Both the position numbers and the translations under genes were made by a program. Source: a virus. From it: a DNA stretch of 22,413 nt. Position 1 is the stretch's first letter; each line of letters begins with the position of its first letter. The notes under the pieces are model-generated. The model did not search any database and was not told the DNA's origin. It saw only the letters and a program-made list of their open reading frames with translations. Below are positions 362-12,808 of this stretch, in pieces. The stretch covers positions 1-22,413 of the IMG/VR virus record IMGVR_UViG_3300025151_005920. One strand, written 5' to 3'.

Positions 362-624
362 TGAAAGTTTCTGTGAAACCAACCGTTCTTCTTGAGCGGT
401 TTCCTTATCGTTATGTTCAAGTTGGCAAACTGGAAACCAATGGTATGCCAGATTGTCGTATTCAAAAAGTAGACTCTTACACGGGTCGATACAGGGACAT
501 GTATCTTTGTGATAATGAAATGCAGTTGATGACTGCCATGGAAGATCATGATTATACTTGCTGGTTAGATCCAGAAAATGTTCCTGCTTACCGTAAAGAT
601 GTAGTTAGTCGGCATGTTGATTGA
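361..624 (+). CDS. small hypothetical protein (87 aa)
   Basis: Not recognised. The ATG at 361 overlaps the preceding stop by one base. The protein begins MKVSVKPTVLLERF and contains tyrosine/arginine-rich segments (SYTGRYRDMYLCDNE) that look like beta-strands, with no membrane segment. Its end overlaps the start of the Nudix gene by 11 nt. It therefore belongs to the early operon driven from the promoter at 95-123, which runs into sugar-nucleotide genes; its role is unknown. Confidence 0.65.
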   Translation: MKVSVKPTVLLERFPYRYVQVGKLETNGMPDCRIQKVDSYTGRYRDMYLCDNEMQLMTAMEDHDYTCWLDPENVPAYRKDVVSRHVD

Positions 625-1042
625 AAAAGATTTATACAGCAAAATTAGAGAAGTAATTCCTACCCTTTGTGTGGATATGGTTGTTACTAATTGGAAGAAT
701 GAATTTCTTCTGATTAAAAGAACTCAATCTCCAGCAAAGGGTCAGTGGTGGTTGCCTGGAGGTAGAGTTTTCAAAAACGAAACTCTTCAACAAGCAGTGC
801 TGCGTAAGGCTAGGGAAGAAATTGGTGTTGATGTTACTTTCAAAGATTTTATTTCTGTTGAGGAAACAATTTTCAAAAAAGATAATGTTCACACAGTCAA
901 TGCTGTCTTCCATGTAACATATTATGGAACAGATATTAATCTCGATGAAACTCATTCGACATATGTCTGGGAGAAAGAAATTGATGAATCTCTTCATTTT
1001 GCTGTAAAAAATCCTATTAAAAAAGTCATGGAGAGACTTTAA
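614..1042 (+). CDS. Nudix hydrolase, GDP-mannose mannosyl hydrolase-like
   Basis: A 142-aa protein with a Nudix box at residues 50-72: G50, E56, R64, E68-E69 and G71-V72 match the Gx5Ex7REUxEExGU pattern, but the first Glu of REUxEE is Lys65. The lead-in (GQWWLPGGRVFKNETL) resembles the GDP-mannose hydrolase (Gmm/NudD) subgroup, whose box also departs from canonical at that position. Known Gmm enzymes hydrolyse GDP-mannose or GDP-glucose to GDP and sugar. A GDP-sugar role fits the nearby manC-type cupin, gmd and fcl. A generic (d)NTP Nudix activity is the alternative. The gene overlaps its upstream neighbour by 11 nt. Confidence 0.85.
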   Translation: MLIEKDLYSKIREVIPTLCVDMVVTNWKNEFLLIKRTQSPAKGQWWLPGGRVFKNETLQQAVLRKAREEIGVDVTFKDFISVEETIFKKDNVHTVNAVFHVTYYGTDINLDETHSTYVWEKEIDESLHFAVKNPIKKVMERL

Positions 1043-1163: not shown

Positions 1164-1370
1164 ATGGCAACTAAAGGACAAGCAGCAAGATCAGCAACAG
1201 GTGCAGCGATGTCAAAATACGATGTAGAAGTCGAATCTAGACTCAAGGCACTTGAAGCACAGGCGCATTCTAAATGTGATGGTGGTGGTGATTCTGAAAG
1301 AGTTGCTGCACTTGAAGCAAAAGTAGATGAACTGATTGCTAAACTTCGTAGAAAAATTGATCTTGGATGA
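1164..1370 (+). CDS. small coiled-coil protein (68 aa)
   Basis: Not recognised beyond fold class. The N-terminus (MATKGQAARSATGAAMSKYD) is small-residue rich and flexible. Two heptad-like blocks follow, EVESRLKALEAQA and ERVAALEAKVDELIAKL, split by a glycine-rich CDGGGD hinge, then a basic end. This suggests a short oligomerising helix-turn-helix rod. The gene is monocistronic in layout: a late-type motif upstream, and hairpins plus a terminator downstream. An internal ATG at 1212 is a less likely start. A virion or scaffold accessory role is possible but only a guess. Confidence 0.7.
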   Translation: MATKGQAARSATGAAMSKYDVEVESRLKALEAQAHSKCDGGGDSERVAALEAKVDELIAKLRRKIDLG

Positions 1371-1373
1371 TCG

Positions 1374-1401
1374 GTTTCTTGCTTTTCCTAAGAGCAAGTG
1401 G
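1374..1401 (+). repeat. hairpin element, copy 2
   Basis: GTTTC leads into CTTGCT (1378-1383) pairing with AGCAAG (1393-1398), followed by TGG. A second hairpin, GGAG-GAAA-CTCC (1409-1420) with GCG/CGC outside it, follows at once. The arms match copy 3, so this is a diverged tandem duplication. Confidence 0.6.
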
Positions 1402-1426
1402 TGCGGATGGAGGAAACTCCCGCCTA

Positions 1427-1456
1427 GTTTCTTGCTTCTAGTTAAAGAGCAAGTGG
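1427..1456 (+). repeat. hairpin element, copy 3
   Basis: GTTTC, then CTTGCT (1431-1436) pairing with AGCAAG (1448-1453), then TGG. Stem arms and flanks are identical to copy 2 while the loop differs, suggesting selection on structure. It lies just before the terminator at 1478. Confidence 0.6.
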
Positions 1457-1477
1457 CGTGCATGTAAAGACCTTAAG

Positions 1478-1504
1478 AAGGAGGGATTCATCCCTCCTTT
1501 TTTT
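1478..1504 (+). terminator. rho-independent terminator
   Basis: A perfect 10-bp inverted repeat, AAGGAGGGAT / ATCCCTCCTT (1478-1487 and 1490-1499), runs into a run of T to 1504. It ends the transcript of the coiled-coil gene and its hairpin region, before the sugar operon. Confidence 0.93.
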
Positions 1505-1525
1505 ATACATATATTATCTAATCAT

Positions 1526-1873
1526 ATGTGTATGGAAAAATCAGAAAGACCTTGGGGATCATATGAAGTAATTGATTCTGGTGAGAGGTTTAAGGTTAAA
1601 AAAATAATTGTCAATCCAGGACAAAGTATATCGTATCAGTACCATCACCATAGATCTGAACACTGGGTAGTTACTAGTGGCACGGCATTAATTAGAAATG
1701 GCGATAAAGAGTTTCTGATGGGTGAATGTGAGAGTACATATATCCCAATGGGGGTAAAGCATAGATTGTCTAATCCAGGATGTATTCCACTTCAGATCAT
1801 AGAAGTGCAGAGTGGATCTTATCTTGAAGAAGATGATATTGTTAGAATTGATGATGCCTACGGAAGGAATTGA
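1526..1873 (+). CDS. mannose-6-phosphate isomerase-type cupin (ManC C-terminal-like)
   Basis: A 115-aa single-domain cupin. It has the RPWGSYEV opening typical of the isomerase half of bifunctional ManC/XanB proteins, then the cupin metal-site pattern ([13 protein letters not shown], about residues 37-49), [17 protein letters not shown] and a [11 protein letters not shown] end. The family interconverts fructose-6-P and mannose-6-P. The guanylyltransferase half of ManC is absent, so GTP-dependent activation would depend on the host or on a gene elsewhere. ATG at 1526 or 1532 (MEKSERPW) are both possible; no clear Shine-Dalgarno is seen. It stands just after a terminator and heads the sugar operon. 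Confidence 0.88.
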
Positions 1874-1898
1874 CACGCTATGATTTCTTTGTTAGTAT
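1870..1898 (+). promoter_or_regulatory. sigma70-type promoter before gmd
   Basis: TTGACA (1870-1875), 17 bp, then TAGTAT (1893-1898; 4 of 6 consensus). It starts within the cupin stop codon and lies 19 bp before the gmd ATG at 1918. It could make gmd and the following genes independent of the cupin. Confidence 0.55.
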
Positions 1899-1917
1899 AG
1901 AAAAAAATAATCCTTAT

Positions 1918-2916
1918 ATGAAAGTTGCTCTAATTACAGGTATTACTGGACAGGACGGTTCATACCTTGCAGAACTTCTCCTTGAAAAGGGGTATGAAGT
2001 TCATGGTATTGTACGGCGTTCTTCCATGATTAATACTCATCGTATAGACCACATTTATAAACGTATTCATCTGCACTATGGTGATTTGACTGATTCTACT
2101 AATATTATGAGAGTCATTCAAAAAGTCAAACCTACTGAGATTTACAATCTCGGTGCTCAGAGTCACGTCAAAGTTTCATTTGAAGTTCCTGAATATACAG
2201 CACAGACTGATGCTTTGGGAACTCTTCGCGTTCTTGAAGCGGTTCGTCTTCTTGGTATGGAAGATAAGGTTCGTATCTATCAAGCATCCACTAGCGAATT
2301 ATATGGACTTGTTCAAGAGACTCCTCAGAAAGAGACGACTCCTTTCTATCCACGTTCTCCATATGGTGTGGCAAAACTATATGCTTATTGGATTATCAAG
2401 AACTATCGTGAAGCATATGGGATGCATTGTAGTTCTGGTATTTTGTTTAACCATGAATCTCCCCGTCGTGGTGAGACTTTTGTGACTAGTAAAATTGTTC
2501 GTGGATTGAAAGCAATTTCTGAAGGAAATCAAAAAGTTCTTTATCTGGGTAATCTTGATGCCAAACGTGATTGGGGTCATGCAAAAGATTATGTTCGTGC
2601 TATGTGGATGATGTTGCAGCAAGATGAACCTGATGATTATGTGATTGCTACAGGAGAACAATATTCTGTCCGTGAATTTATTGAAAAAGCAGCACCATAC
2701 TTTGGATTTGATCTTGAATGGCATAGTAATGGTGAAGATGAAATTGCTATGGATAAAAATACAAAGAAAACTATTGTTGCTGTAGATCCTAAATATTATC
2801 GTCCTGCTGAAGTCGAAACGTTACTTGGAGACGCGACTAAAGCAAAAGAAAAACTTGGTTGGGAACCAAAAATTACATTCAATCAATTAGTAGAGGATAT
2901 GTGTAAAAATGTCTGA
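1918..2916 (+). CDS. gmd: GDP-mannose 4,6-dehydratase
   Basis: A 332-aa extended short-chain dehydrogenase that converts GDP-D-mannose to GDP-4-keto-6-deoxy-D-mannose. The NAD(P) motif GITGQDG is at residues 8-14. The catalytic set is visible as STSELYG (T125, E127) and Y149-x3-K153 in [29 protein letters not shown] and [16 protein letters not shown] are Gmd signatures. ATG 1918 is chosen because the protein then starts MKVALITG as in the family; an upstream TTG at 1870 falls in the -35 box. It overlaps the methyltransferase by 8 nt. Product use: GDP-fucose via Fcl, and possibly a methylated branch. Confidence 0.96.
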
Positions 2917-4180
2917 TAAAATGTTTCGTAAAATCAACAAATGTCGTGTTTGCGGAAATCCTGATTATAATCTTGTATTAGATCTTGGTGAGCAATATCT
3001 CTCTGGCATTTTTCCAAAAGAAAAAGATTTGGATATGCCTAAAGGACCTCTCCGCCTAGTTAAATGTAACGTAGAAACAGGTGGATGTGGACATGTTCAA
3101 CTTGAGCATACTTATGATCTTCCTACAATGTATGGAGATAATTATGGATATCGTTCTGGATTAAATGCTGGAATGGTGCAGCATTTGCAGAATAAGGCAA
3201 TCAACATTCAGAAATTTGTTGTTGAAAATAATGGTAGTTTTGATAAAGGAGATATTATTGTTGATATTGCTGGGAATGATGGAACTTTCCTGGGATTTTG
3301 GAATGAGAGTTATAATAGACTAATTATTGATCCAACATCAGATAAATTTCGGGAATTTATTCCTCCTGATGTTAGACATGCAGCAAAATTCTTTTCTAAA
3401 GAAGTCTTTCAAGAAGTTTATGGTGACAAAAAAGCAAAAGTAGTAACTACTTTCTCTATGTTCTATGATCTTGATGATCCATGTAAATTTGCTCGTGAAG
3501 TTAATAGTATTCTAGATGACAACGGAATATGGGTTTTGGAACAGAGTTATGTTTCATTAATGCTGCAAGCAAATTCTTTTGACACCATTTGCCACGAACA
3601 TCTTTCATACTATGCAATGGAACAGATTGAATTGATCATGCAAGTATCTGGATTTAAAGTTATTGATTATGAGCTTAATGATGTAAATGGTGGAAGTATT
3701 TCAATCATAGTTGCTAAAGAAAATTCTGGGTATAAACCAAGATCTGAGCATATGATGAGAGAAATTGCTGCAAAGGAGAAGAATCTAGGATTACAAACGA
3801 GTGTTCCTTGGGACAACTTTAAGATGAACATTGAAACTTGTAAGGAAAATTTTCTAAACGTTCTGTCATCTTATGCTCGTCAAGGTAAGAAAGTTGCGGG
3901 ATTGGGTGCAAGTACAAAAGGAAATGTGTTACTTCAATCTTGGGGAATTACTAGTGAACAAATTGAGGTTATTGGAGATGTAAATCCAGATAAGCATGGG
4001 TCGTTTACTCCAGGAACCTGGATTCCTATTGCAGATGAAGAATCTGTTTTGGAGAAGTATGAAATATTTGTTGTTCTTCCTTGGCACTTTAGAAATTTCT
4101 TTATGAATCATTCTAACTTTAAAGGAAAAACATTAATCTTTCCTCTACCAAATGTTACAGTTCAAAAACCTAGCTGGTAA
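2909..4180 (+). CDS. sugar C-methyltransferase (NovU/TylCIII-type)
   Basis: A 423-aa SAM-dependent enzyme with the three-part layout of NDP-ketosugar C-methyltransferases. An N-terminal zinc-binding domain has Cys12/Cys15 (CRVCG) and Cys53/Cys60. The SAM-binding core contains [13 protein letters not shown], where IGSNDG is usual. A C-terminal domain carries [15 protein letters not shown]. Also typical are [16 protein letters not shown] and the NGGSISI block. The family methylates a ketosugar carbon to make a branched sugar. Placed between gmd and fcl, its substrate may be a GDP-ketosugar, but that is inference. It overlaps gmd by 8 nt and ends 11 nt before fcl. Confidence 0.88.
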
Positions 4181-4191
4181 ATATAATAATT

Positions 4192-5124
4192 ATGGATAAG
4201 TTGAAAAAAGTTTATGTCGCAGGGCATAGAGGATTGGTTGGATCTGCAATTGTAAAAGCATTGCAATCCCGAGGATTTAAAAATATTATTACTAAGACGA
4301 GACAAGAGTTAGATCTTTTAGATCAAAAAGCAGTAACAGAATTTTTTGAATTTGAAAAACCTGCTTATGTATTTGACGCCGCCGCCAAAGTTGGAGGAAT
4401 CTACGCAAACGATACTTATTCTGCAGACTTCATCTATGAAAATATTCAAATTCAAAATAATCTAATTCATAGTGCATGGAAATCTGGTGTCGAAAACTTT
4501 TTGTTTTTGGGATCAGTTTGCATTTATCCTAAGTATGCAGAAGTTCCTGTTAAAGAAGAATCTCTTTTGACTGGTTACTTAGAACCAACGAATGATGCAT
4601 ATGCCATCGCTAAAATTTCTGGCATTAAAATGCTTCAGGCATACCATAAACAGTATGGAATGAAAAGTGTATGCTTAATGCCATCAAATCTTTATGGTCC
4701 TAGAGATAATTTTCATCCAGATAATGGACATGTAATTCCCGCAATGATTACAAAATTTCAAAATTCTTTTGGGCAGAAAGTCACTTTCTGGGGAGATGGT
4801 TCTCCAAAGAGAGAATTTTTGTACTCTGAAGATCTTGCTGATGCATGTTTATTTGCTATTGATCGATTTGAGAAAGGTGAGTTGATTAATGTTGGATCCG
4901 GGGAAAATGTCAGTATCAAGGATCTTGCAAATAAGGTTGCAGGTGTGGTAAGATTTAATGGTGAAATTGGATGGGATACTTCTCGCCCCAATGGAACTCC
5001 CAATAGACCATTAGATAGTTCTAAGATCATGGATCTTGGTTGGAAACCGAAGCACACTCTTTCTCAAGGTTTGCTAAAAACTTATGAGTGGTATAATGAA
5101 TCAGTATATTTGGAGACTATTTAA
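4192..5124 (+). CDS. fcl: GDP-L-fucose synthase
   Basis: A 310-aa NADPH-dependent epimerase/reductase that turns GDP-4-keto-6-deoxymannose into GDP-L-fucose. GHRGLVG at 11-17 is the nucleotide-binding loop. The catalytic residues are all present: Ser108 and Cys110 in GSVCIYP, Tyr137-x3-Lys141 (YAIAK), and the acid His180 in NGHVIPAMI. FLYSEDLADA and INVGSGENVSI are family blocks. Length is normal. The stop and the next ATG share one base (TAATG). With gmd it completes the de novo GDP-fucose branch. Confidence 0.96.
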   Translation: MDKLKKVYVAGHRGLVGSAIVKALQSRGFKNIITKTRQELDLLDQKAVTEFFEFEKPAYVFDAAAKVGGIYANDTYSADFIYENIQIQNNLIHSAWKSGVENFLFLGSVCIYPKYAEVPVKEESLLTGYLEPTNDAYAIAKISGIKMLQAYHKQYGMKSVCLMPSNLYGPRDNFHPDNGHVIPAMITKFQNSFGQKVTFWGDGSPKREFLYSEDLADACLFAIDRFEKGELINVGSGENVSIKDLANKVAGVVRFNGEIGWDTSRPNGTPNRPLDSSKIMDLGWKPKHTLSQGLLKTYEWYNESVYLETI

Positions 5125-5846
5125 TGTATAAAGTTGGTGAACATTGTTGGTCTTCTCAGAAATGTGGATGTCAACTTGCACAGCATGTATGGAGTAAAAT
5201 CAGTACATATCAAGATTATGTTTTCTATCAAGGTAGAAATCCTTTTGATAGAGTTGTGAGTTTATATGCTGGACACTTCGTTGATATTAACGGAGTGATG
5301 TGGTGGAACACGGGGCATGAGAGCACTCTTAACATGCCTCATGATCAGAGAGGACGTGCTATTGCTCAAAGAGATCCTAAAAAATTTCTTGGATTCGCTC
5401 CCGAATCAGTTTGTGATTATACTTTTGAGAGATTTGTTTTTGAGGTCTTGAACAAAAACATGACAACAAATGGTGATCCTCATGTCAGATGTCAGACAAT
5501 TGGAGCTCCAGATAGAAAGTTTGATGATATTGTTCTGTTAAATTCTTTACCAGAAGCATATTCAAATATAGTGGATAAAATTCATGGACTTGAAATTGAG
5601 TTTGACTTTAATGAATTGAAGAAAGATTCTGGAGTTGTTACTCCGAACAAACATATTACTCCTAAATCTGACTTAAATGATTTGGATGCTGCAAAAGTTA
5701 CTCCACAAGAATGGTGGGAGTATGGATCATTCCCATCAAAGTACTCTTGTTTTTACAAAGATGAGAATGTAATCGATAGAGTTCAAGATCTTTATGAAAA
5801 AGACTTTGAGTTTTTCAAAGAGTATGATATTTATTGCAACCCATGA
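5124..5846 (+). CDS. sulfotransferase family protein
   Basis: A 240-aa protein resembling the carbohydrate sulfotransferase group (Sulfotransfer_2 type), which moves sulfate from PAPS to a sugar hydroxyl. The N-terminal SSQKCGCQLAQHVW at about 10-23 sits where the 5'-phosphosulfate loop is expected. YQGRNPFDRVVSLYAGHF at about 36-53 matches the 3'-phosphate site (normally RdPfeRlvSay). The C-terminal LYEKDFEFFKEY matches the usual LYxxDFexFgY ending. The loop is not a textbook one. Overlap of one base upstream and four bases (ATGA) downstream places it firmly in the glycan operon. Confidence 0.75.
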   Translation: MYKVGEHCWSSQKCGCQLAQHVWSKISTYQDYVFYQGRNPFDRVVSLYAGHFVDINGVMWWNTGHESTLNMPHDQRGRAIAQRDPKKFLGFAPESVCDYTFERFVFEVLNKNMTTNGDPHVRCQTIGAPDRKFDDIVLLNSLPEAYSNIVDKIHGLEIEFDFNELKKDSGVVTPNKHITPKSDLNDLDAAKVTPQEWWEYGSFPSKYSCFYKDENVIDRVQDLYEKDFEFFKEYDIYCNP

Positions 5847-6814
5847 AGTATTCTAAAGTAGTAATTTGGGGTCATCCTCTATATTCCCATACTCATTCTT
5901 ATGTTCATGAAGCATACTATAGAGCATTTAAAAGTCTAGGTTATGATGTCTATTGGTTTCACGATGATGAATACCCAGAAGACTTTGACTATACCAACTG
6001 TCTTTTTATTGGCGAAGGATATGCTGATAAGAAGATTCCTATTAACGACAGCAGTTGCTATTTAATTATGTACTGTCCGTCTCCGATCAAATATGAGGAG
6101 GCGGAAAGATATATTGATGTTAGAATGTCTGCGGTTAATTTCAAAGATCATATTCAAGAATATTCTTTGGATAAAACCACGGCAACTAAACTAGGACCAG
6201 CATGTTACTTCGTACCAAAGACCTCTGATAAAGTCAGAGTCAAAAATGATTATCATGATTATGAAATGAATGATTATGATAAACTCTACATCAGTTGGGC
6301 AACAAACCTTTTGCCTGATGAATTTGAAGATGAAGATCTTTACATTGAAAGGGAAAATGCAATTTATTATTGTGGAACAATTTCTGCTCAAGGGGTATGC
6401 GAAAACTATTCAAAATGGACACCATTCTTGAAAGCATGTCAAGAAAATGGTATTCGATTCATTCATAATGATCCTTGGGCAAATCCACTCTCAATGGGTG
6501 ATGTAATTAATCGAACTCAAAGTTCTATTCTTGGAATAGATATTCGTGGTCCTCAACATTTGAAGCAGGGTCTTTTGACCTGTAGAGTCTTTAAGAACAT
6601 GAGTTATGGTCATCTTGGACTAACAAACTCTCCAGCAGTTTATGAAGAACTGGATGGAAATTGTATATACAATGATGATACAGAACAACTCTTTTACGAA
6701 GGTATGCGTAATAGAGAAAATTATGATTTTATTAGAAAAGGTATGCAATACGTCAAAGAAAATCATACCTATATAAATCGAGTCAATAGTATTCTAAGTA
6801 TTTTTGGAGATTGA
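5843..6814 (+). CDS. GT-B-like glycosyltransferase
   Basis: A 323-aa protein. The N-terminal half (KVVIWGHPLYSHTHSYVHEAYYRAFKSLGY spans about 4-33) looks like the acceptor-side Rossmann domain of a GT-B enzyme. The C-terminal half has the donor-side pattern LLTCRVFKNMSYGHLGLTNS, then an acidic YEELDGNCIYND segment and a final helix, as in CgeB-like or group 1 transferases. The donor sugar cannot be read from sequence. ATG 5843 overlaps the previous TGA as ATGA; an in-frame TTG at 5834 is less likely. Confidence 0.65.
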   Translation: MKYSKVVIWGHPLYSHTHSYVHEAYYRAFKSLGYDVYWFHDDEYPEDFDYTNCLFIGEGYADKKIPINDSSCYLIMYCPSPIKYEEAERYIDVRMSAVNFKDHIQEYSLDKTTATKLGPACYFVPKTSDKVRVKNDYHDYEMNDYDKLYISWATNLLPDEFEDEDLYIERENAIYYCGTISAQGVCENYSKWTPFLKACQENGIRFIHNDPWANPLSMGDVINRTQSSILGIDIRGPQHLKQGLLTCRVFKNMSYGHLGLTNSPAVYEELDGNCIYNDDTEQLFYEGMRNRENYDFIRKGMQYVKENHTYINRVNSILSIFGD

Positions 6815-6816
6815 AA

Positions 6817-7443
6817 ATGAATTTTTATTCTGATGCTGGTCAGGACCAGTTTGCAGCAAATCTTTTGAAGTTTAAGAGAGATGGATATTGTGTAGATATT
6901 GGTGCCTGTCATTCTGCAATTTCAAATAACACTTTTGTATTCCAAGAACTTGGATGGACATCTGTGAGTGTTGAGATTAATAGTCAGTATAATGACAGTT
7001 ATGCTAATCGTTCTCAAGGAACTCATTACAATGAGGACGCTACTAAGATGGATTATGTGAAAGCATTTGAAGAAAATGAATTCCCAGAAACTATTGATTA
7101 TCTTTCACTCGATGTAGATACTGCATCACTTACGGTTCTCAAGATTCTTCCCTTTGATAAGTATCGCTTCAAAGCAATTACTATTGAGCATGATGCATAT
7201 CTTTATGGAGACACTTATCGTGCAGAGCAGCGTGAAGTATTAGAAGGGTATGGATATAGACTGGTCTGTTCTAATATTCTTGTTCCTAATCCTGGTCATC
7301 AGGGGTATGATGGATTCTCTCCCTGTCCTTTTGAAGACTGGTGGGTACATCCTGATGAACATGATCCAGAAGTTCTTGATGCAATTCAAAGTGATCTTGC
7401 TCATCCTGGAAGTATCATTGCAAAACTGCAAGCTATGCAATGA
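6817..7443 (+). CDS. FkbM-family methyltransferase
   Basis: A 208-aa SAM-dependent O-methyltransferase-like protein. GYCVDIGACHSAISNNTFVF is the SAM motif I region with its FkbM spacing, SVEIN is motif II, and LSLDVDTASLTVLKIL plus AITIEHD are the later FkbM blocks. It probably O-methylates a sugar in the glycan made by this operon; the position is unknown. ATG 6817 is supported by GGAG at 6806-6809. Its end overlaps the next start by 4 nt. Confidence 0.8.
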   Translation: MNFYSDAGQDQFAANLLKFKRDGYCVDIGACHSAISNNTFVFQELGWTSVSVEINSQYNDSYANRSQGTHYNEDATKMDYVKAFEENEFPETIDYLSLDVDTASLTVLKILPFDKYRFKAITIEHDAYLYGDTYRAEQREVLEGYGYRLVCSNILVPNPGHQGYDGFSPCPFEDWWVHPDEHDPEVLDAIQSDLAHPGSIIAKLQAMQ

Positions 7444-8156
7444 AGTTAGGGTTTTTCTTTAGTTGCTATACGGAGAACAAAGCGGTAGAAAATTCTATTG
7501 CTGAACTCCGTAAGCATTATCCAGATAATCCGATCTACTTGGTTTCTGATGGTGGATCGGACTTTAGTTATTTGAAAGATCAATATAAAAATCTAGAAGT
7601 ATCTTTGGAAGAAGATACGATGAGTAATACTTTTAAAGTTACGGATCAAAATTGGAGAGAACCAGTTCACCAAGAAACTATTAAGATTGCAACATATGCA
7701 GTTTTGAATAGACTTGAGAGAGCAATTGATTATTGTAAAACAGATTACATTCTCATGATGGATCCAGACGCTTTAGTTAGAGGAACTCTTAATATTCCTG
7801 AAGGGGCAAAGTTACTTGGATCTAGAATCAATACAGGACTTCCTCAGGGAGTTAGAGATGTACTTGCACGAGTTGAAGGTGCGAGAGTAATTAATTGTTG
7901 GGGAGCAACTCCTGCAATGTTTGAGACTAAAACTTTTACAGAATCCTGGAATAAAATTAAAGAGACTCCAGAAGTTATGGATTTATTCTTTAATGAATTT
8001 TATGCAATTTATGCTCATGATGTTCTTCTTCCCTTAGTATTTGCTCTAGTTGGAGAAGAAGAAACTTTGAATCCTGATATTGTAGAGTGTAATAGAAATC
8101 CAAACTGGAGAAATAGCGGACATCCTCTTGTACACCAATATAAGGAGTTTTATTGA
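7440..8156 (+). CDS. GT-A-like glycosyltransferase
   Basis: A 238-aa protein. The N-terminus (MKLGFFFSCYTENKAVENSI) begins with a nucleotide-binding type strand. A metal/nucleotide motif, ILMMDPDALVRG, has Asp108-x-Asp110, the DxD of GT-A enzymes. The later NCWGATPAMFETKTF and HDVLLPLVFALVGE blocks resemble acceptor and base regions. The exact GT family is not recognised. Four-base overlap upstream, one-base overlap (TGATG) downstream. Confidence 0.65.
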   Translation: MKLGFFFSCYTENKAVENSIAELRKHYPDNPIYLVSDGGSDFSYLKDQYKNLEVSLEEDTMSNTFKVTDQNWREPVHQETIKIATYAVLNRLERAIDYCKTDYILMMDPDALVRGTLNIPEGAKLLGSRINTGLPQGVRDVLARVEGARVINCWGATPAMFETKTFTESWNKIKETPEVMDLFFNEFYAIYAHDVLLPLVFALVGEEETLNPDIVECNRNPNWRNSGHPLVHQYKEFY

Positions 8157-8956
8157 TGTTTAGTATTGTCACTTCATTATATAATCTCAGTGATGTTAGA
8201 CGCGGAGACGGTCGAAACTGGGATGATTATTTGGATTGGTTTGGGAGGACACTTCAAATTAAGTGTCCTTTTATTATCTTTACTGAAGAAGAAACAGTTG
8301 ATTTTGTTAAAGAGCAAAGAGGAGATCTCCCAACTCATATCATTACAACTACACTTGAAGAAGTTCCTTTATATGGTCTGAAAGATCAAATTCAGAAAGT
8401 ACTAGATTCTCCAGAGTATGAAGAATCTATGTCTGATACAAATAGAGTAGAGTGTAAAGACTCTATGTACTCTGTTATTCAGTATTCAAAATTCAAGTGG
8501 TTGAAAGAATCTTCTAAGATAAATCCTTTTGATTCAAAATATTTCTTTTGGTTAGATGCAGGAGCTAGTAGATTTATTGAAAAGAGTTTGTATAACGAAG
8601 AGTATCCTTCTAAACTCAGTCTAGAAAAACTAGATCAAATTGACAATTCGTTTTTAATTCAGTATAATACTGAATGTTATCCCGATTTAGTGAATCCTAA
8701 AACGTTGTCTGAGAACTATCTTTGGGACAATAGATCATTTGTTTGTGGAAGCATGTTTGGCGGTAATGCTAAATCCATAGATTCTGTTGATAGACAGATT
8801 GATGAAGTTATGGAAATTATGTTAGAAACTGGTTGCATGAATAATGAACAAATTGCTCTAGGATATTTGTGTAAGAATGATAGTGATGATTTGTTCGCTT
8901 GTTTTGAGAGAAACAATCCTAGACAACACTTAGCTTTATTTCAAGAAATGGCATGA
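8156..8956 (+). CDS. HtrL/YibB-like putative glycosyltransferase
   Basis: A 266-aa protein that fits the HtrL/YibB (WlaTC) family: SIVTSLYNLSDVR at the start, WDDYLDWFGRTLQIKCPFIIF next, and the hallmark FFWLDAGASRF at about 130-140. CGSMFGGN and NEQIALGYL follow. The family occurs in LPS and capsule loci and is taken to transfer sugars, though its chemistry is less well defined. ATG 8156 has AAGGAG at 8142-8147. A perfect consensus promoter lies inside the gene at 8640-8668. Confidence 0.75.
   Translation: MFSIVTSLYNLSDVRRGDGRNWDDYLDWFGRTLQIKCPFIIFTEEETVDFVKEQRGDLPTHIITTTLEEVPLYGLKDQIQKVLDSPEYEESMSDTNRVECKDSMYSVIQYSKFKWLKESSKINPFDSKYFFWLDAGASRFIEKSLYNEEYPSKLSLEKLDQIDNSFLIQYNTECYPDLVNPKTLSENYLWDNRSFVCGSMFGGNAKSIDSVDRQIDEVMEIMLETGCMNNEQIALGYLCKNDSDDLFACFERNNPRQHLALFQEMA
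8640..8668 (+). promoter_or_regulatory. perfect sigma70 consensus inside the coding region
   Basis: TTGACA (8640-8645), 17 bp, TATAAT (8663-8668), all consensus, within the HtrL-like gene. The -10 box lies in a perfect 19-bp palindrome, ATTCAGTAT-A-ATACTGAAT (8657-8675). If active it would boost the downstream GT4-GT11-GT6-GT25 genes. It may be a coding coincidence. Confidence 0.4.
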
Positions 8957-9897
8957 AAATTACTCTTATTGGACCAGGCATTATGCCTATCCCACCGACA
9001 GGTTGGGGTGCGGTTGAAATTTTGATTTGGGACACTAGAAATGCTCTAAAAGAGTTAGGGCATGAAGTACAAATCGTTAATACAAAAGATCCTAATGAAA
9101 TCATTAGTCAGATCAATCAGTTTAGACCTGACTTTGTTCATGTTCATTATGATGAATTTATTGGTGTCTATCCTTATATTCAATATCCCAAAGCAATAAC
9201 AAGTCATTTTGGATACTTAGAAAGAACTGAAATGTTTGGTGGGTATGCAAATGTTGCAAATGCATTTGCAAAAATTAAACCAAATGTTTTTTGTTTATCT
9301 GAGGGTATTCAAAAAGTCTATTCTGTTCTAATGAATATTCCGAAGCAGCAATTGTTTATAACTCCAAATGGTGTCAATAGGTCTGCTTTCAAATTTAATC
9401 CAGAACCTGAGTTTCCTGATCGTAGTTTATATCTTGCTAAGATTGACTACAGAAAGCGTCAGCACATGTTCCAGTCCATTGAAAGTCTTTGGTATGCTGG
9501 AAACAATGCAGATTCTCGTTTTGATGTAAATAAGAATTATCTGGGGGAATGGTCCAAAGAAGTTCTTCATAATAATCTAACTGATTATGGCAACCTTGTT
9601 CTTCTGTCTGATGGTGAAGCACATCCTTTAGTCTGTATGGAAGCTCTTGCTGCTGGACTTGGTGTTGTTGTAACTGAATGGGGTAAGGCAAATCTTGATC
9701 CTGATAAAGAGTTCATCACAATCATCCCAGAGTCTAAGGTGAATGATCTTGAGTTTGTTGAAGATGTAATTATCAAGAATAGAGAATATTCTATTGCACA
9801 TCGTGAAGAGATTAGAGAATACTCGAAAAAGTTTGACTGGGTAAATGTTATAAAAGAGCATTATATCCCTAGTGTTAAGGAGATTATTGGAAAATGA
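8953..9897 (+). CDS. GT4-type (group 1) glycosyltransferase
   Basis: A 314-aa GT-B enzyme. It opens MKITLIGPGIMPIPPTGWGA, the donor/acceptor glycine loop of group 1 transferases. PNGVNRSAF at about 138-146 links the domains. The C-terminal donor site is SDGEAHPLVCMEALAAGLGV, matching the E-x7-E region (EAHPLVCMEALA) that holds the nucleotide-sugar ribose and phosphates. It is a little short for GT4 (usually 350-400) but both domains are recognisable. Sugar specificity is unknown. ATGA overlaps on both sides. Confidence 0.85.
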   Translation: MKITLIGPGIMPIPPTGWGAVEILIWDTRNALKELGHEVQIVNTKDPNEIISQINQFRPDFVHVHYDEFIGVYPYIQYPKAITSHFGYLERTEMFGGYANVANAFAKIKPNVFCLSEGIQKVYSVLMNIPKQQLFITPNGVNRSAFKFNPEPEFPDRSLYLAKIDYRKRQHMFQSIESLWYAGNNADSRFDVNKNYLGEWSKEVLHNNLTDYGNLVLLSDGEAHPLVCMEALAAGLGVVVTEWGKANLDPDKEFITIIPESKVNDLEFVEDVIIKNREYSIAHREEIREYSKKFDWVNVIKEHYIPSVKEIIGK

Positions 9898-10685
9898 TTG
9901 GATATAATACTATTGGTTACTTGGGTAGACTTGGAAATCAGATGTTCCAGTTTGCTGCACTTAAAGGGATTGCTCGTAATAGAGGGTATGAATATTGTAT
10001 TCCCCCTTCAAAAAATCAGAATGAACTGTGTGATCATCAGTTGTTAGTTCCATTCAAATTAAAAAACGTTTCCTCTTTAAATGTTCAATACATTGATCGT
10101 GAAAGACCAACTGTAATTGAAGATGGATTTTGCTATGATAATAATCTATTTGAAAATTGTCCTGACTGGGTAAATGTTCAAGGATATTTTCAGACCGAAA
10201 AATATTTCAAACATATCGAAAAGGAAATTAGAGAAGACTTTGAATTCAAAGATGAGATTCTAGAACCATGTAAAGAAATGATTGCAGGAATTGAAGACCC
10301 AATTTCTTTGCACGTTCGTAGAACTGATTATATAACAAATCCAAATCATACTGCTTTGGATATTGATTACTATACAAATGCGCTGAAAGAATTTGATTCT
10401 GATGCAACCGTTCTTGTATTTTCTGATGATCCAGAGTGGTGTTCAGAGCAAGAGTTGTTTTCTGATGATAGATTTTTGATTGCTGAAGGAAACAGTAATT
10501 ATGTTGATATGTGTCTGATGACATTATGTTCTGGTCACATTATTGCAAACTCATCTTTTTCCTGGTGGGGAGCATGGTTGTCAAACAGTAAGAAAGTAAT
10601 TGCTCCTGCTGGTTGGTTTAGGGGATCTAAGAATGAACACCTAGATACTAAAGATGTCGTCCCAGATAATTGGATGGTGATATGA
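9894..10685 (+). CDS. alpha-1,2-fucosyltransferase (GT11)
   Basis: A 263-aa enzyme of family GT11, which moves L-fucose from GDP-fucose to the 2-OH of a terminal hexose. Clear motifs: GRLGNQMFQFA at 11-21, the GDP-fucose-binding HVRRTDY at 140-146, and NSSFSWWGAWLS at 219-230. Length is normal for bacterial members. Its donor is the product of gmd and fcl in the same operon. The ATG overlaps the GT4 stop as ATGA, and its own stop overlaps the GT6 start in the same way. I see no feature that argues for inactivation. Confidence 0.94.
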   Translation: MIGYNTIGYLGRLGNQMFQFAALKGIARNRGYEYCIPPSKNQNELCDHQLLVPFKLKNVSSLNVQYIDRERPTVIEDGFCYDNNLFENCPDWVNVQGYFQTEKYFKHIEKEIREDFEFKDEILEPCKEMIAGIEDPISLHVRRTDYITNPNHTALDIDYYTNALKEFDSDATVLVFSDDPEWCSEQELFSDDRFLIAEGNSNYVDMCLMTLCSGHIIANSSFSWWGAWLSNSKKVIAPAGWFRGSKNEHLDTKDVVPDNWMVI

Positions 10686-11401
10686 AAGTTGCAATTTGTT
10701 TTATAGGTACTTCAAAGTACATAGAATTTCTTCCAAAGTATCATGAAAATATTGAAAAGTATTTTCTTCCTGGTGTAGAAAAAACTATACTTGCATTTAC
10801 TGATGGTGAATTGCAAGGACTCCCTGATAATATCATTCCTTATTATCAGGAGCACTTGGATTGGCCATATATTACTTTAACTCGATTTGAAATTATCAAA
10901 CGTGCAAGTGATATTATCAGAAAGCATGACTGGTTTATTTTTATCGATGCTGATGCACTAGTAGTTGATACGATTACTAAGGAAGAATTTTTTGATTACA
11001 CTAAACCTTTCTTTGGTGTTCATCATCCTTGCCATTTTCTCAAGATGCAACCTCATCACAAGATGCCAGGTGCGTTTGAAACTAATCCAAAATCAACAGC
11101 ATGTATAACAGAATCTGATGATACTTCAGTATATTATCAAGGATGTTTATGGGGAGGTAGAGTTCCCGATGTTCTTGAAATGATTGATGAACTCAAGTAT
11201 AGAGTCAACAAAGATTTAAAGGATGGTGTCATTGCTGTTTGGCATGATGAAAGTCAGTTAAATAAGTTCTACTGTCAGCAGAAGGAATACGTTCATACTC
11301 TGGGACCTGAGTTTGCATATCCTGAAGTATTTGCAAATGCTTGCGATTTTGAACCAAAAATAGTACACTTAGCAAAAGAGAATTCAAAATATCATGTCTG
11401 A
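10682..11401 (+). CDS. GT6-family (ABO-like) glycosyltransferase
   Basis: A 239-aa protein with the catalytic-domain signatures of family GT6 (alpha-1,3-Gal/GalNAc transferases): WPYITLTRFEIIK at 61-73, the metal site FIDADALVV with Asp89-x-Asp91, HHPCHF at 114-119, YYQGCLWGGR, and WHDESQLNKF at 187-196 (compare the WHDESHLN block of animal enzymes). It has no N-terminal anchor. Many bacterial GT6 proteins carry NxN in place of DxD; this one keeps DxD. It directly follows GT11, whose H-type product is the usual GT6 acceptor. ATG 10682 overlaps the previous stop; an upstream TTG at 10670 is rejected. Confidence 0.85.
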   Translation: MKVAICFIGTSKYIEFLPKYHENIEKYFLPGVEKTILAFTDGELQGLPDNIIPYYQEHLDWPYITLTRFEIIKRASDIIRKHDWFIFIDADALVVDTITKEEFFDYTKPFFGVHHPCHFLKMQPHHKMPGAFETNPKSTACITESDDTSVYYQGCLWGGRVPDVLEMIDELKYRVNKDLKDGVIAVWHDESQLNKFYCQQKEYVHTLGPEFAYPEVFANACDFEPKIVHLAKENSKYHV

Positions 11402-12224
11402 TCTCGCACTACTTGATAAAAATAAGTCAGCATATAAACTTAAAAATATTGGACCTATCTATTGTATTAATCTAGATGATCAGACCGATCGTTGGGAATA
11501 TATGGAGGATCAATTTAAGTATTGGGAGATTGATAATTATGAAAGAATCTCTGCGTATGATGGTAGAGATGATGATCTAAGTGACATCATCAAAGGCAAG
11601 TATCCTAACAACATGAGTTCTAGTGAGATTGGTTGTACTACATCTCATCTGAAAGCAATGAAGCATTTTTTGGAGACATCTGATTCTCCATATGCAATTA
11701 TGATGGAGGATGATTGTGATTTAGATCTAGTCAAGTATTGGAATTTTACTTGGAGTGATTTCTATGCACACTTTCCTTATGATTATGATGTAGTTCAATT
11801 AGCAATTATTTCTACAGGAGATCTTCATGTAAGACTTCATAAAAGATTTGTAAATGATTTCTCTACAGCATGTTATGTAATCACTCGTCGTCATGCTCAA
11901 AAATTGATTGATTTTCATTGTCGTGGAAACAAATATAAACTGGACCAGGGTGTAAAACCACGTCCAGTTGCAGATGATCTTATTTACAATTCTGGAAATT
12001 CTTTTGCCATTCCTCTGTTTCTTTATAAAGTAGAACTAGGGTCTAGTATTCATCCTGATCATGTGGAAGTTTTTCACAAAGGTAATCAAGCAGCTTTGCT
12101 GAATTTTTGGCAACAGCAAGGTGCAAGTATTGACATCAAGGACTACATGAACTATGATCCTTACCTTGGTCGGATCACTGAACCGACCAGACCCCCACAG
12201 AGTGCGGAAACCCCAACCTCTTGA
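11394..12224 (+). CDS. GT25-family (LPS-type) glycosyltransferase
   Basis: A 276-aa protein. The N-terminal IYCINLDDQTDRWEYMEDQF at about 22-41 and EIGCTTSHLKAMKHFL at about 78-93 are GT25 signatures, followed by the metal site IMMEDDCDLD (Glu105-Asp-Asp). CYVITRRHAQKLIDF is also typical. GT25 enzymes add galactose or other sugars to LPS-type glycans. It is the last gene of the sugar operon, overlapping GT6 by 8 nt. The C-terminal proline-rich tail (TEPTRPPQSAETPTS) is extra to the domain, and its DNA holds a 7-bp inverted repeat (12167-12189). Confidence 0.85.
   Translation: MSDLALLDKNKSAYKLKNIGPIYCINLDDQTDRWEYMEDQFKYWEIDNYERISAYDGRDDDLSDIIKGKYPNNMSSSEIGCTTSHLKAMKHFLETSDSPYAIMMEDDCDLDLVKYWNFTWSDFYAHFPYDYDVVQLAIISTGDLHVRLHKRFVNDFSTACYVITRRHAQKLIDFHCRGNKYKLDQGVKPRPVADDLIYNSGNSFAIPLFLYKVELGSSIHPDHVEVFHKGNQAALLNFWQQQGASIDIKDYMNYDPYLGRITEPTRPPQSAETPTS
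12130..12158 (+). promoter_or_regulatory. possible upstream promoter within the GT25 gene end
   Basis: TTGACA (12130-12135), 17 bp, TATGAT (12153-12158; 5 of 6). It lies in coding sequence, about 90 bp upstream of the next promoter-like site, so it could be chance or a tandem promoter for the beta-barrel gene. Confidence 0.35.
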
Positions 12225-12256: not shown

Positions 12257-12347
12257 AATTGTCACACGCATTTATACTCATTGAGTGTGACAGTTCGCAA
12301 ACAGAACCAAGTCGAGGTTCTTTCCATCTGCGGGTAATCATTCCGCA
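12257..12347 (+). promoter_or_regulatory. structured 5' leader with three successive hairpins
   Basis: Hairpin 1: AATTGTCACAC (12257-12267) with GTGTGACAGTT (12285-12295), 11 bp with one G-T pair. Hairpin 2: AGAACC (12303-12308) with GGTTCT (12316-12321). Hairpin 3: TGCGG (12329-12333) with CCGCA (12343-12347). All lie between promoter and ATG. They may stabilise the mRNA or regulate it; no known riboswitch is recognised. Confidence 0.5.
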
Positions 12348-12372
12348 AGTAAAAAAACGAGGTATTAAACAA

Positions 12373-12753
12373 ATGTTCAAATCTGTATTCGCAGCCACTG
12401 CTGCTCTCTCCATGTCTGCTGGTGCTGCCCTTGCAGGTCCCTACGTCAACGTAGAAACCAATGCCGGTTGGGTCGGAGACGACTATACCGGAGCGACCAC
12501 TGATTTCCACGTTGGTTACGAAGGTGCCATTGGTGATGGTGATGCTTCCTGGTACGTCCAAGGCGGACCTAGCGTTGTCGCTGTTGATGGTGCTGAAAAT
12601 CAGCAAGTTTGGTCTGGTAAGGTTGGTGCTAGTGCCGCTTTGTCCAGTAGCGTCGGTGTCTATGGTGAACTGAGTGCCGCTACTGCTGACAGCGATTTCT
12701 CCACTGAAGGACTTGGCGTCGGTGGTAAACTCGGTGTGAAGTATAACTTCTGA
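12373..12753 (+). CDS. small secreted beta-barrel-like (outer membrane/porin-like) protein
   Basis: A 126-aa protein with an N-terminal signal peptide (MFKSVFAATAALSMSAGAALA, probable cut before GPYV). The mature part alternates polar and hydrophobic residues in beta-strand fashion (DFHVGYEG, SWYVQGG, SGKVGASAAL, GVYGELSA) and ends GGKLGVKYNF. A terminal Phe with alternating hydrophobics is the outer-membrane barrel insertion signal. Length would suit four to six strands, less than a full barrel. The DNA is richer in GC than its neighbours and favours C-ending codons, which suggests high expression or separate origin. It is monocistronic, between a promoter-rich leader and a terminator. Role unknown: envelope insertion or a virion component are both possible. 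Confidence 0.75.
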   Translation: MFKSVFAATAALSMSAGAALAGPYVNVETNAGWVGDDYTGATTDFHVGYEGAIGDGDASWYVQGGPSVVAVDGAENQQVWSGKVGASAALSSSVGVYGELSAATADSDFSTEGLGVGGKLGVKYNF

Positions 12754-12784
12754 GTTTACAACTAAACATCTAGGTGTTATGATG

Positions 12785-12808
12785 GGGGTGCGACGGCACC
12801 CCTTTTTT
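12785..12808 (+). terminator. rho-independent terminator
   Basis: GGGGTGC (12785-12791), loop GACG, GCACCCC (12796-12802), then six T. It closes the beta-barrel transcript 31 bases after its stop. Confidence 0.95.

Follow-up and report, generated by a model that had tools for sequence, protein, structure and literature searches.

In Escherichia coli O86, the family GT6 enzyme WbnI is paired with the family GT11 enzyme WbwK in the synthesis of a blood-group-B O antigen (PMC4202792), so that an H/B-type end is built within one bacterium. The Bacteroides ovatus enzyme BoGT6a acts on 2'-fucosyllactose (PMC3961637); it is a metal-independent enzyme of the NxN type that uses UDP-N-acetylgalactosamine (UDP-GalNAc) and makes an A-type product. 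Among viruses, GT6 genes had been noted in 'two cyanophages' by 2014 (PMC3961637), and an alpha-1,2-fucosyltransferase accompanied by gmd/fcl has been described as a cell-wall modification function in cyanophage S-SCSM1 (PMC9602691). The GT6 genes of P-SSM2 and other cyanophages lie in glycan clusters with GT11 annotated nearby. The locus analyzed here belongs to this setting. It is found in IMG/VR record IMGVR_UViG_3300025151_005920, a 22.4-kb virus record (22,413 nucleotides, the whole of which is called the window below), where a GT11 gene overlaps a GT6 gene. A preliminary description had seen in this pair a blood-group-type logic, rightly stating that GT6 had already been reported in cyanophages. 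The reading favored here, with slightly more belief than doubt, is that GT11 and GT6 are transferred together among cyanophages as a translationally coupled cassette whose two glycosyltransferases act one after the other. No paper describing a GT6–GT11 cassette in cyanophages was found in a search limited to open-licence papers, which does not prove absence; nor did that literature yield a description of the overlap and its conservation, of the one-sided dependence, of GT4 fused to GT6 or of the clade with Gln-Gly-Cys (Q-G-C) donor positions.

Two predicted glycosyltransferases and their active sites

9894..10685, + strand: GT11 family fucosyltransferase, predicted GDP-fucose transferase, alpha-1,2 linkage likely (PF01531, phrog_2644, AlphaFold fold comparison, HxRRxD motif)
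10682..11401, + strand: GT6 family retaining glycosyltransferase, DxD type, Q-G-C donor positions (PF03414, phrog_3317, AlphaFold fold comparison, catalytic residues)
10682..10685, + strand: ATGA overlap, GT11 stop and GT6 start (read directly from the sequence)

Both genes are complete and share the four bases ATGA, as first described, and all the motifs quoted at that time (GRLGNQMFQF, HVRRTDY, WPYITLTRF, DAD, HHPCHF and WHDESQLNKF) are present. The two family assignments were likewise borne out by profile matches above curated cut-offs, by PHROG matches and by predicted folds. The GT11 protein (263 residues, ATG start) matches PF01531 with E=4e-29 (102.2 bits, cut-off 23.9) and phrog_2644 with E=3e-111, and carries its HxRRxD motif as HVRRTD at residues 140–145. 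AlphaFold models of both proteins were built from alignments of viral and bacterial relatives. That of GT11, with a mean predicted local distance difference test score (pLDDT) of 96.6, has the GT-B fold of GDP-fucose transferases: the 43 top PDB entries are all GDP-fucose transferases, superposition on POFUT1 (Z 14.2), NodZ (14.0), FUT8 and AtFUT1 gives Z values of 13–14 with root-mean-square deviations (rmsd) of 3.5–4.9, and the best match outside the fucosyltransferases is a GT9 enzyme (Z 11.0). A phmmer search of the GT11 sequence against the PDB gave a chance match only, so that the fucosyltransferase relation rests on the fold comparison. The protein is a predicted GDP-fucose transferase with a likely alpha-1,2 linkage, and its ratio of non-synonymous to synonymous substitution rates (dN/dS) is 0.11–0.17 against near relatives, indicating purifying selection.

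The GT6 protein (239 residues counted from the ATG at 10682) matches PF03414 with E=3e-19 (69.5 bits, cut-off 25) and phrog_3317 with E=4e-104; its sole and best NCBIfam match, NF041524 ('family 6 glucosyltransferase'), scores 167.9 bits, below the 250-bit cut-off. Its model (mean pLDDT 96.1) has the GT-A fold of the family. The best structural match is the BoGT6a–2'-fucosyllactose complex 4ayj (31% identity; Z 32.1, with an rmsd of 1.6 Å over 223 residues), followed by the human ABO enzymes GTA/GTB (Z about 28, at 24% identity) and bovine alpha-1,3-galactosyltransferase (Z 27.3). Equivalents of human H233, W300–E303 and K346 are kept, with the catalytic Glu at E190 (human E303), the WHDE loop beginning W187-H188-D189 and the C-terminal Lys at K232 (K346). 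Unlike BoGT6a and its clade of bacterial metal-independent enzymes with NxN, the window's GT6 carries DxD (D89-A90-D91) and is probably metal-dependent. The preliminary remark that this sets it apart from many bacterial members held in the sample, DxD being present in 42/42 viral GT6 sequences compared with 8 of 33 cellular ones, the other 25 having Asn in first position. GT6 is also under purifying selection (dN/dS 0.15–0.18 against near relatives). Three phage GT6 copies (L149, L115 and L119; L numbers are our handles for contigs and loci) have YYEE or FYEE in place of the WHDE loop and changes at W61 and R68 with the catalytic Glu kept, and their activity is possibly altered.

The donor site distinguishes the window's GT6 from its characterized relatives. 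At human positions 176/235/266/268, the A enzyme has R/G/L/G and the B enzyme G/S/M/A; the corresponding residues here are Q56/C117/Q153/C155. Where the A enzyme reads Leu-Gly-Gly and the B enzyme Met-Gly-Ala, the window's clade reads Gln-Gly-Cys. Q153 and C155 are invariant in this clade (44/44) and C117 nearly so (42/44), so that neither the Gly at 266 or 268 of A-type enzymes nor the Met266 and Ala268 of B-type enzymes occurs, a galactose donor being still possible in the latter case. Elsewhere, Q-G-C was seen in only two sampled cellular GT6 sequences (L196, Chitinophaga, and L231, Saprospiraceae), both of the NxN type. According to a published proposal (PMC4692239), GalNAc transfer requires a Gly at one of the human positions 266 and 268. 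Because Gln and Cys break this rule, which was derived on human enzymes and is extended here to phage ones, the donor is predicted to be other than UDP-GalNAc, most simply UDP-galactose.

One-sided coupling of GT11 and GT6

Relatives of the window's GT6 and GT11 occur in 71 and 104 records of the 'phages' collection, respectively. With the GT6 protein alone as query, IMG/VR yielded one near-identical contig, and an alignment query was needed for more. Eighty GT6 loci were taken from IMG/VR and, together with cultured phages and the window, dereplicated at 80% identity to 34 GT6 sequences. GT11 is no more than 2 kb from GT6 in all of these loci: it lies directly upstream in 25, upstream at some distance in 5 and downstream in 4, and is absent from none. 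Because the window's own proteins served to select the loci by similarity, 34/34 describes the window's clade. Under random gene order, 2.8 directly upstream positions are expected, and the maximum reached in 200,000 simulations was 12. The search for conserved adjacency proposed in the preliminary description thus had a positive outcome, the pair recurring in many phages and in bacteria; its proviso, that adjacency might be found in no related phage, did not come true. Deposited genomes with the pair adjacent include S-CAM9, Bellamy, S-8S55 and the freshwater phage DSL-LC02, in which nearly the whole operon of the window is found in the same order. Most viral pairs overlap or abut (four bases in S-8S55, B23, Bellamy and SynMITS9220M01, one base in DSL-LC02), and the ATGA overlap makes translational coupling likely. 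The gene 5' of the pair varies (GT4, fcl, another epimerase or others), as does the gene 3' of it (GT25, HtrL or others; GT25 occurs in 19/36 dereplicated viral loci), and because these flanks change while the pair stays, the pair is a stable core.

The association is asymmetrical. Viral GT6 implies GT11 in 34/34 loci, whereas viral GT11 with room for a neighbor has GT6 in its locus in only 36/77 cases (Fisher 3e-9). This is the pattern expected if GT6 needs the product of GT11; adjacency alone is no proof of it. The link extends to cells: of 64 dereplicated GT6 loci on genome contigs, 44 also contain GT11, which is adjacent in either order in 17, and in the phylum around L220, GT11 is found in 8/11 genomes with GT6 versus 48/386 overall. 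Distances within the two protein families are correlated (Mantel r=0.54, n=56).

A further tie is provided by gene fusion. A homologue of the window's GT4 gene (8953–9897) is fused to the GT6 N-terminus, giving proteins of ~560 residues, in 21 contigs (L021, L028–L032, L034, L039, L040, L042, L043, L047, L048, L062, L063, L065, L066, L069, L072, L076 and L078). On contigs long enough to show it, GT11 follows downstream, immediately or within a few genes, which ties GT4, GT6 and GT11 into one functional set.

The coupling is not confined to one lineage. In an 85-row tree, the window's clade comprises 49 phage sequences (support 88/95). P-SSM2 GT6, 35% identical to the window's, falls outside it, next to a sequence from Bacillota (support 99/96), in a part of the tree with DxD-type sequences from amoeba-symbiont groups; P-SSM2-type donor positions are A-G-G, as in BoGT6a, or A-A-A. 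A scan with the P-SSM2 protein gave 80 further loci and 26 dereplicated GT6 sequences, one of them of the Q-G-C type. Since 21/26 of this set also have GT11 in the locus, the coupling exists in two distinct phage GT6 lineages. One contig, L301 (3066–6761), has both GT6 types in a single operon, in the order wcaG RNA, gmd, fcl, GT11, GT6 (A-G-G), two genes and GT6 (Q-G-C).

As to origin, a recent capture of GT6 from a cyanobacterial host was considered and rejected: 11/386 genomes around L220 have GT6, and the copies inspected among them were of the NxN type or near it, in contrast to the phage clade. No host source for phage GT6 was found among these 386 genomes, a negative that is not clean because the taxonomic make-up of the sample is not visible. 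GT6 was stated in a 2014 paper not to be found in archaea. A contig named Pacearchaeota archaeon contains a GT6 gene (L173:7511–8302) that joins the phage clade (100/99 in the same tree) on a long branch beside it; contamination is possible.

A working model of reaction order

The favored reading can be set out as a sequence of steps. GT4 and GT25 would probably build or extend the acceptor chain. GT11 would transfer L-fucose or a closely related 6-deoxyhexose, supplied as the GDP-sugar, to a sugar, most likely in alpha-1,2 linkage on a beta-linked galactose. GT6, as a metal-dependent retaining enzyme, would then attach a hexose, galactose in alpha-1,3 linkage being the likeliest, to the residue fucosylated by GT11 and so cap the chain, and the operon, under its wcaG leader RNA, would make or alter a glycan on the surface of the infected cell. 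The families, predicted folds and catalytic residues of the enzymes, the conservation of their adjacency, the purifying selection on both genes and the one-sided link of GT6 to GT11 are observations; from these we infer which donors and acceptor are used, in what order and with which linkages the enzymes act, where the glycan is located and that GT6 is metal-dependent. The 'blood-group logic' is a sensible way to picture the order of the reactions and does not amount to an established structure. For the A/B/H-like end initially proposed, the coupling of GT11 with GT6 stands (34/34), whereas the donor-selectivity positions match neither the A nor the B enzyme. The nearest bacterial parallel, E. 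coli O86, differs from the window's pair, which is carried by a phage, has overlapping genes and includes a GT6 of a divergent clade, WbnI having been compared by description only.

Besides the manner in which the loci were chosen, several points weigh against this model. The GT11 family also includes the alpha-1,3-fucosyltransferase HhFT2 (PMC4202792). On the acceptor side of GT6, H115 and W187 are kept, but human F236 is replaced by H118, T245 by A131 and G235 by C117; because of the first two changes, the acceptor may differ from that of the ABO enzymes. In the same loci, the GT6–GT11 distance correlation is no stronger than that between GT6 and GT4, and GT4::GT6 fusions with GT11 downstream fit an action of GT6 next to GT4 as well as one after GT11. 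Finally, glucose predominates in the reported lipopolysaccharides (LPS) of Synechococcus WH8102 and CC9311, which also contain some glucosamine and galacturonic acid; neither fucose nor galactose is listed (PMC4515613). A fucosylated galactose end would therefore be foreign to these LPS, if LPS is the target.

Much of this evidence suits another arrangement, in which GT6 would be of the mammalian alpha-1,3-galactosyltransferase type and act on a non-fucosylated sugar laid down by GT4 or GT25, GT11 acting elsewhere on the polymer and adjacency reflecting a shared polysaccharide cluster. We regard it as unlikely. The fusions in many phages with a separate GT11 downstream, the acceptor-site residues unlike those of ABO enzymes, the good fit of the model to the bovine enzyme and the near equality of the two distance correlations are all in its favor. 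It accommodates less well the GT6-implies-GT11 asymmetry, the retention of the pair where GT4 and GT25 are not adjacent and the recurrence of GT11 coupling in a second GT6 lineage.

Operon, sugar supply and biological meaning

The content of the window is of cyanophage type (plastocyanin, an alternative-oxidase-like protein and the cyanophage barrel, by Pfam), and ferredoxin-, gnd- and zwf-like reading frames are also present. The + strand from 1526 to 12224 is a single tightly packed gene run, from a ManC-type cupin through GT25; behind it come the barrel gene and then a terminator-like site (12784–12803, terminator scan). The remaining features are as follows.

614..1042, + strand: Nudix hydrolase, nearest to GDP-mannose mannosyl hydrolase, 5' of the leader RNA (NF011963, E=6e-19, under cut-off)
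1370..1467, + strand: wcaG candidate riboswitch RF01761, operon leader (95 bits, gathering score 42)
1478..1506, + strand: terminator-like hairpin and T-run directly after the wcaG RNA (read directly; separate stem on folding)
1526..1873, + strand: mannose-6-phosphate isomerase type II/ManC cupin domain (PF01050, E=1e-48; C-terminal part of TIGR01479)
1918..2916, + strand: gmd, GDP-mannose 4,6-dehydratase (TIGR01472, 563 bits, cut-off 415)
2909..4180, + strand: sugar C-methyltransferase-like protein, between gmd and fcl (PF08484, E=1e-37; PF08421, PF13489)
4192..5124, + strand: fcl, GDP-L-fucose synthase-like (NF047922 best match; GSVCIYPK and YAIAK motifs)
5124..5846, + strand: sulfotransferase-like (Pfam, weak family match)
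5834..6814, + strand: glycosyltransferase-like (Pfam)
6811..7443, + strand: FkbM methyltransferase (Pfam)
7440..8156, + strand: gene without assigned family (Pfam scan)
8153..8956, + strand: HtrL/YibB (Pfam)
8953..9897, + strand: GT4-type glycosyltransferase (PF13439, E=2e-6; phrog_33732, E=2e-177)
11394..12224, + strand: GT25 family glycosyltransferase, possible beta-Gal/Glc transferase (PF01755, E=4e-14; phrog_2835)
12259..12753, + strand: cyanophage outer-membrane-like beta barrel, last gene before the terminator-like site (PF24653, E=5e-45)

The weak match at 5124–5846 makes a sulfated glycan possible. The initial placement of gmd and fcl just upstream of the pair needs correction: they belong to the same gene run, but start ~8.0 and 5.7 kb upstream of GT11, with the C-methyltransferase gene between them and six genes separating fcl from GT11. 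The notion of a GDP-fucose operon likewise does not hold generally, both genes being present in only 10/36 viral loci. As constant companions of the pair they were accordingly rejected, the upstream epimerase elsewhere being an unassigned short-chain dehydrogenase/reductase. Loci without them would depend for GDP-fucose on the host, or on genes beyond the fetched stretch.

The assignment of gmd is clear; fcl matches NF047922 (GDP-L-fucose synthase) best by far, with 416.6 bits against a cut-off of 500. The methyltransferase gene between the two raises the possibility that the sugar is not plain L-fucose, the C-methyltransferase acting first on the GDP-4-keto-6-deoxy sugar, GT11 then transferring a branched 6-deoxyhexose and GT6 acting on it. 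The order gmd, C-methyltransferase, fcl, common to the window and DSL-LC02, and methyltransferase homologues in 5/36 loci speak for such a route, as does the low fcl score. We nevertheless consider it improbable, since the fcl of ACG-2014f, with no methyltransferase between, scores the same (420 bits), which shows that a low score does not go with the presence of a methyltransferase gene, and since most GT11–GT6 loci lack such a gene.

As for expression, wcaG RNA (RF01761) is known as a leader of cyanophage exopolysaccharide operons (PMC2864571), and it leads the operon of the window. It lies 59–68 nt before GT11 in L017, L023, L025, L033 and L045, and one epimerase gene earlier in L005, L008, L059 and L070. 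It precedes 12 scanned GT6 loci, window included; as a specific mark of GT11–GT6 operons it was discarded, both genes occurring in only 3/49 viral wcaG operons with at least 2.5 kb downstream. It is a general leader or control element of cyanophage sugar operons, in line with the published view (PMC2864571). The hairpin at 1478–1506 keeps its pairing through paired changes in L301 and L008, and an attenuator following the wcaG RNA (1370–1506 with it) is plausible on these grounds. The pair is also led by a second candidate riboswitch, manA RNA, found 24 nt before GT11 in L085 (4938–5143) and L088 (4927–5143). A group I intron match (66 bits) was seen in the related phage contig L025 (902–1092).

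A location of the glycan on the virion (tail fibres or the outer-membrane-like barrel) instead of the host surface is doubtful: the barrel gene ends the operon, a tail fibre gene is near the cluster in ACG-2014f and both studied marine Synechococcus LPS structures are simple (PMC4515613), but the published view of cyanophage glycan genes is one of host surface change (PMC9602691).

More speculatively, the diversity of GT6 may amount to an ABO-like polymorphism of cyanophages, in which a shared GT11 step is followed by one or another of several exchangeable GT6 enzymes, with three or more donor-site types among them (Q-G-C, A-G-G and A-A-A). Related phages, or one carrying two types as in L301, would then put different terminal sugars on the fucosylated glycan and change the recognition of cells or virions by other phages or grazers; this we offer as a tentative idea with the chances rather against it. 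If an H-then-A/B-type end is indeed the product of the pair, the two-step logic of human ABO would be widespread, as a cassette, among viruses that infect very abundant photosynthetic cells, the donor site of its GT6 being unmatched by the human or Bacteroides enzymes compared. The pair would then provide tractable enzymes for asking why phages remodel glycans, and new DxD-type GT6 enzymes for glycan synthesis.

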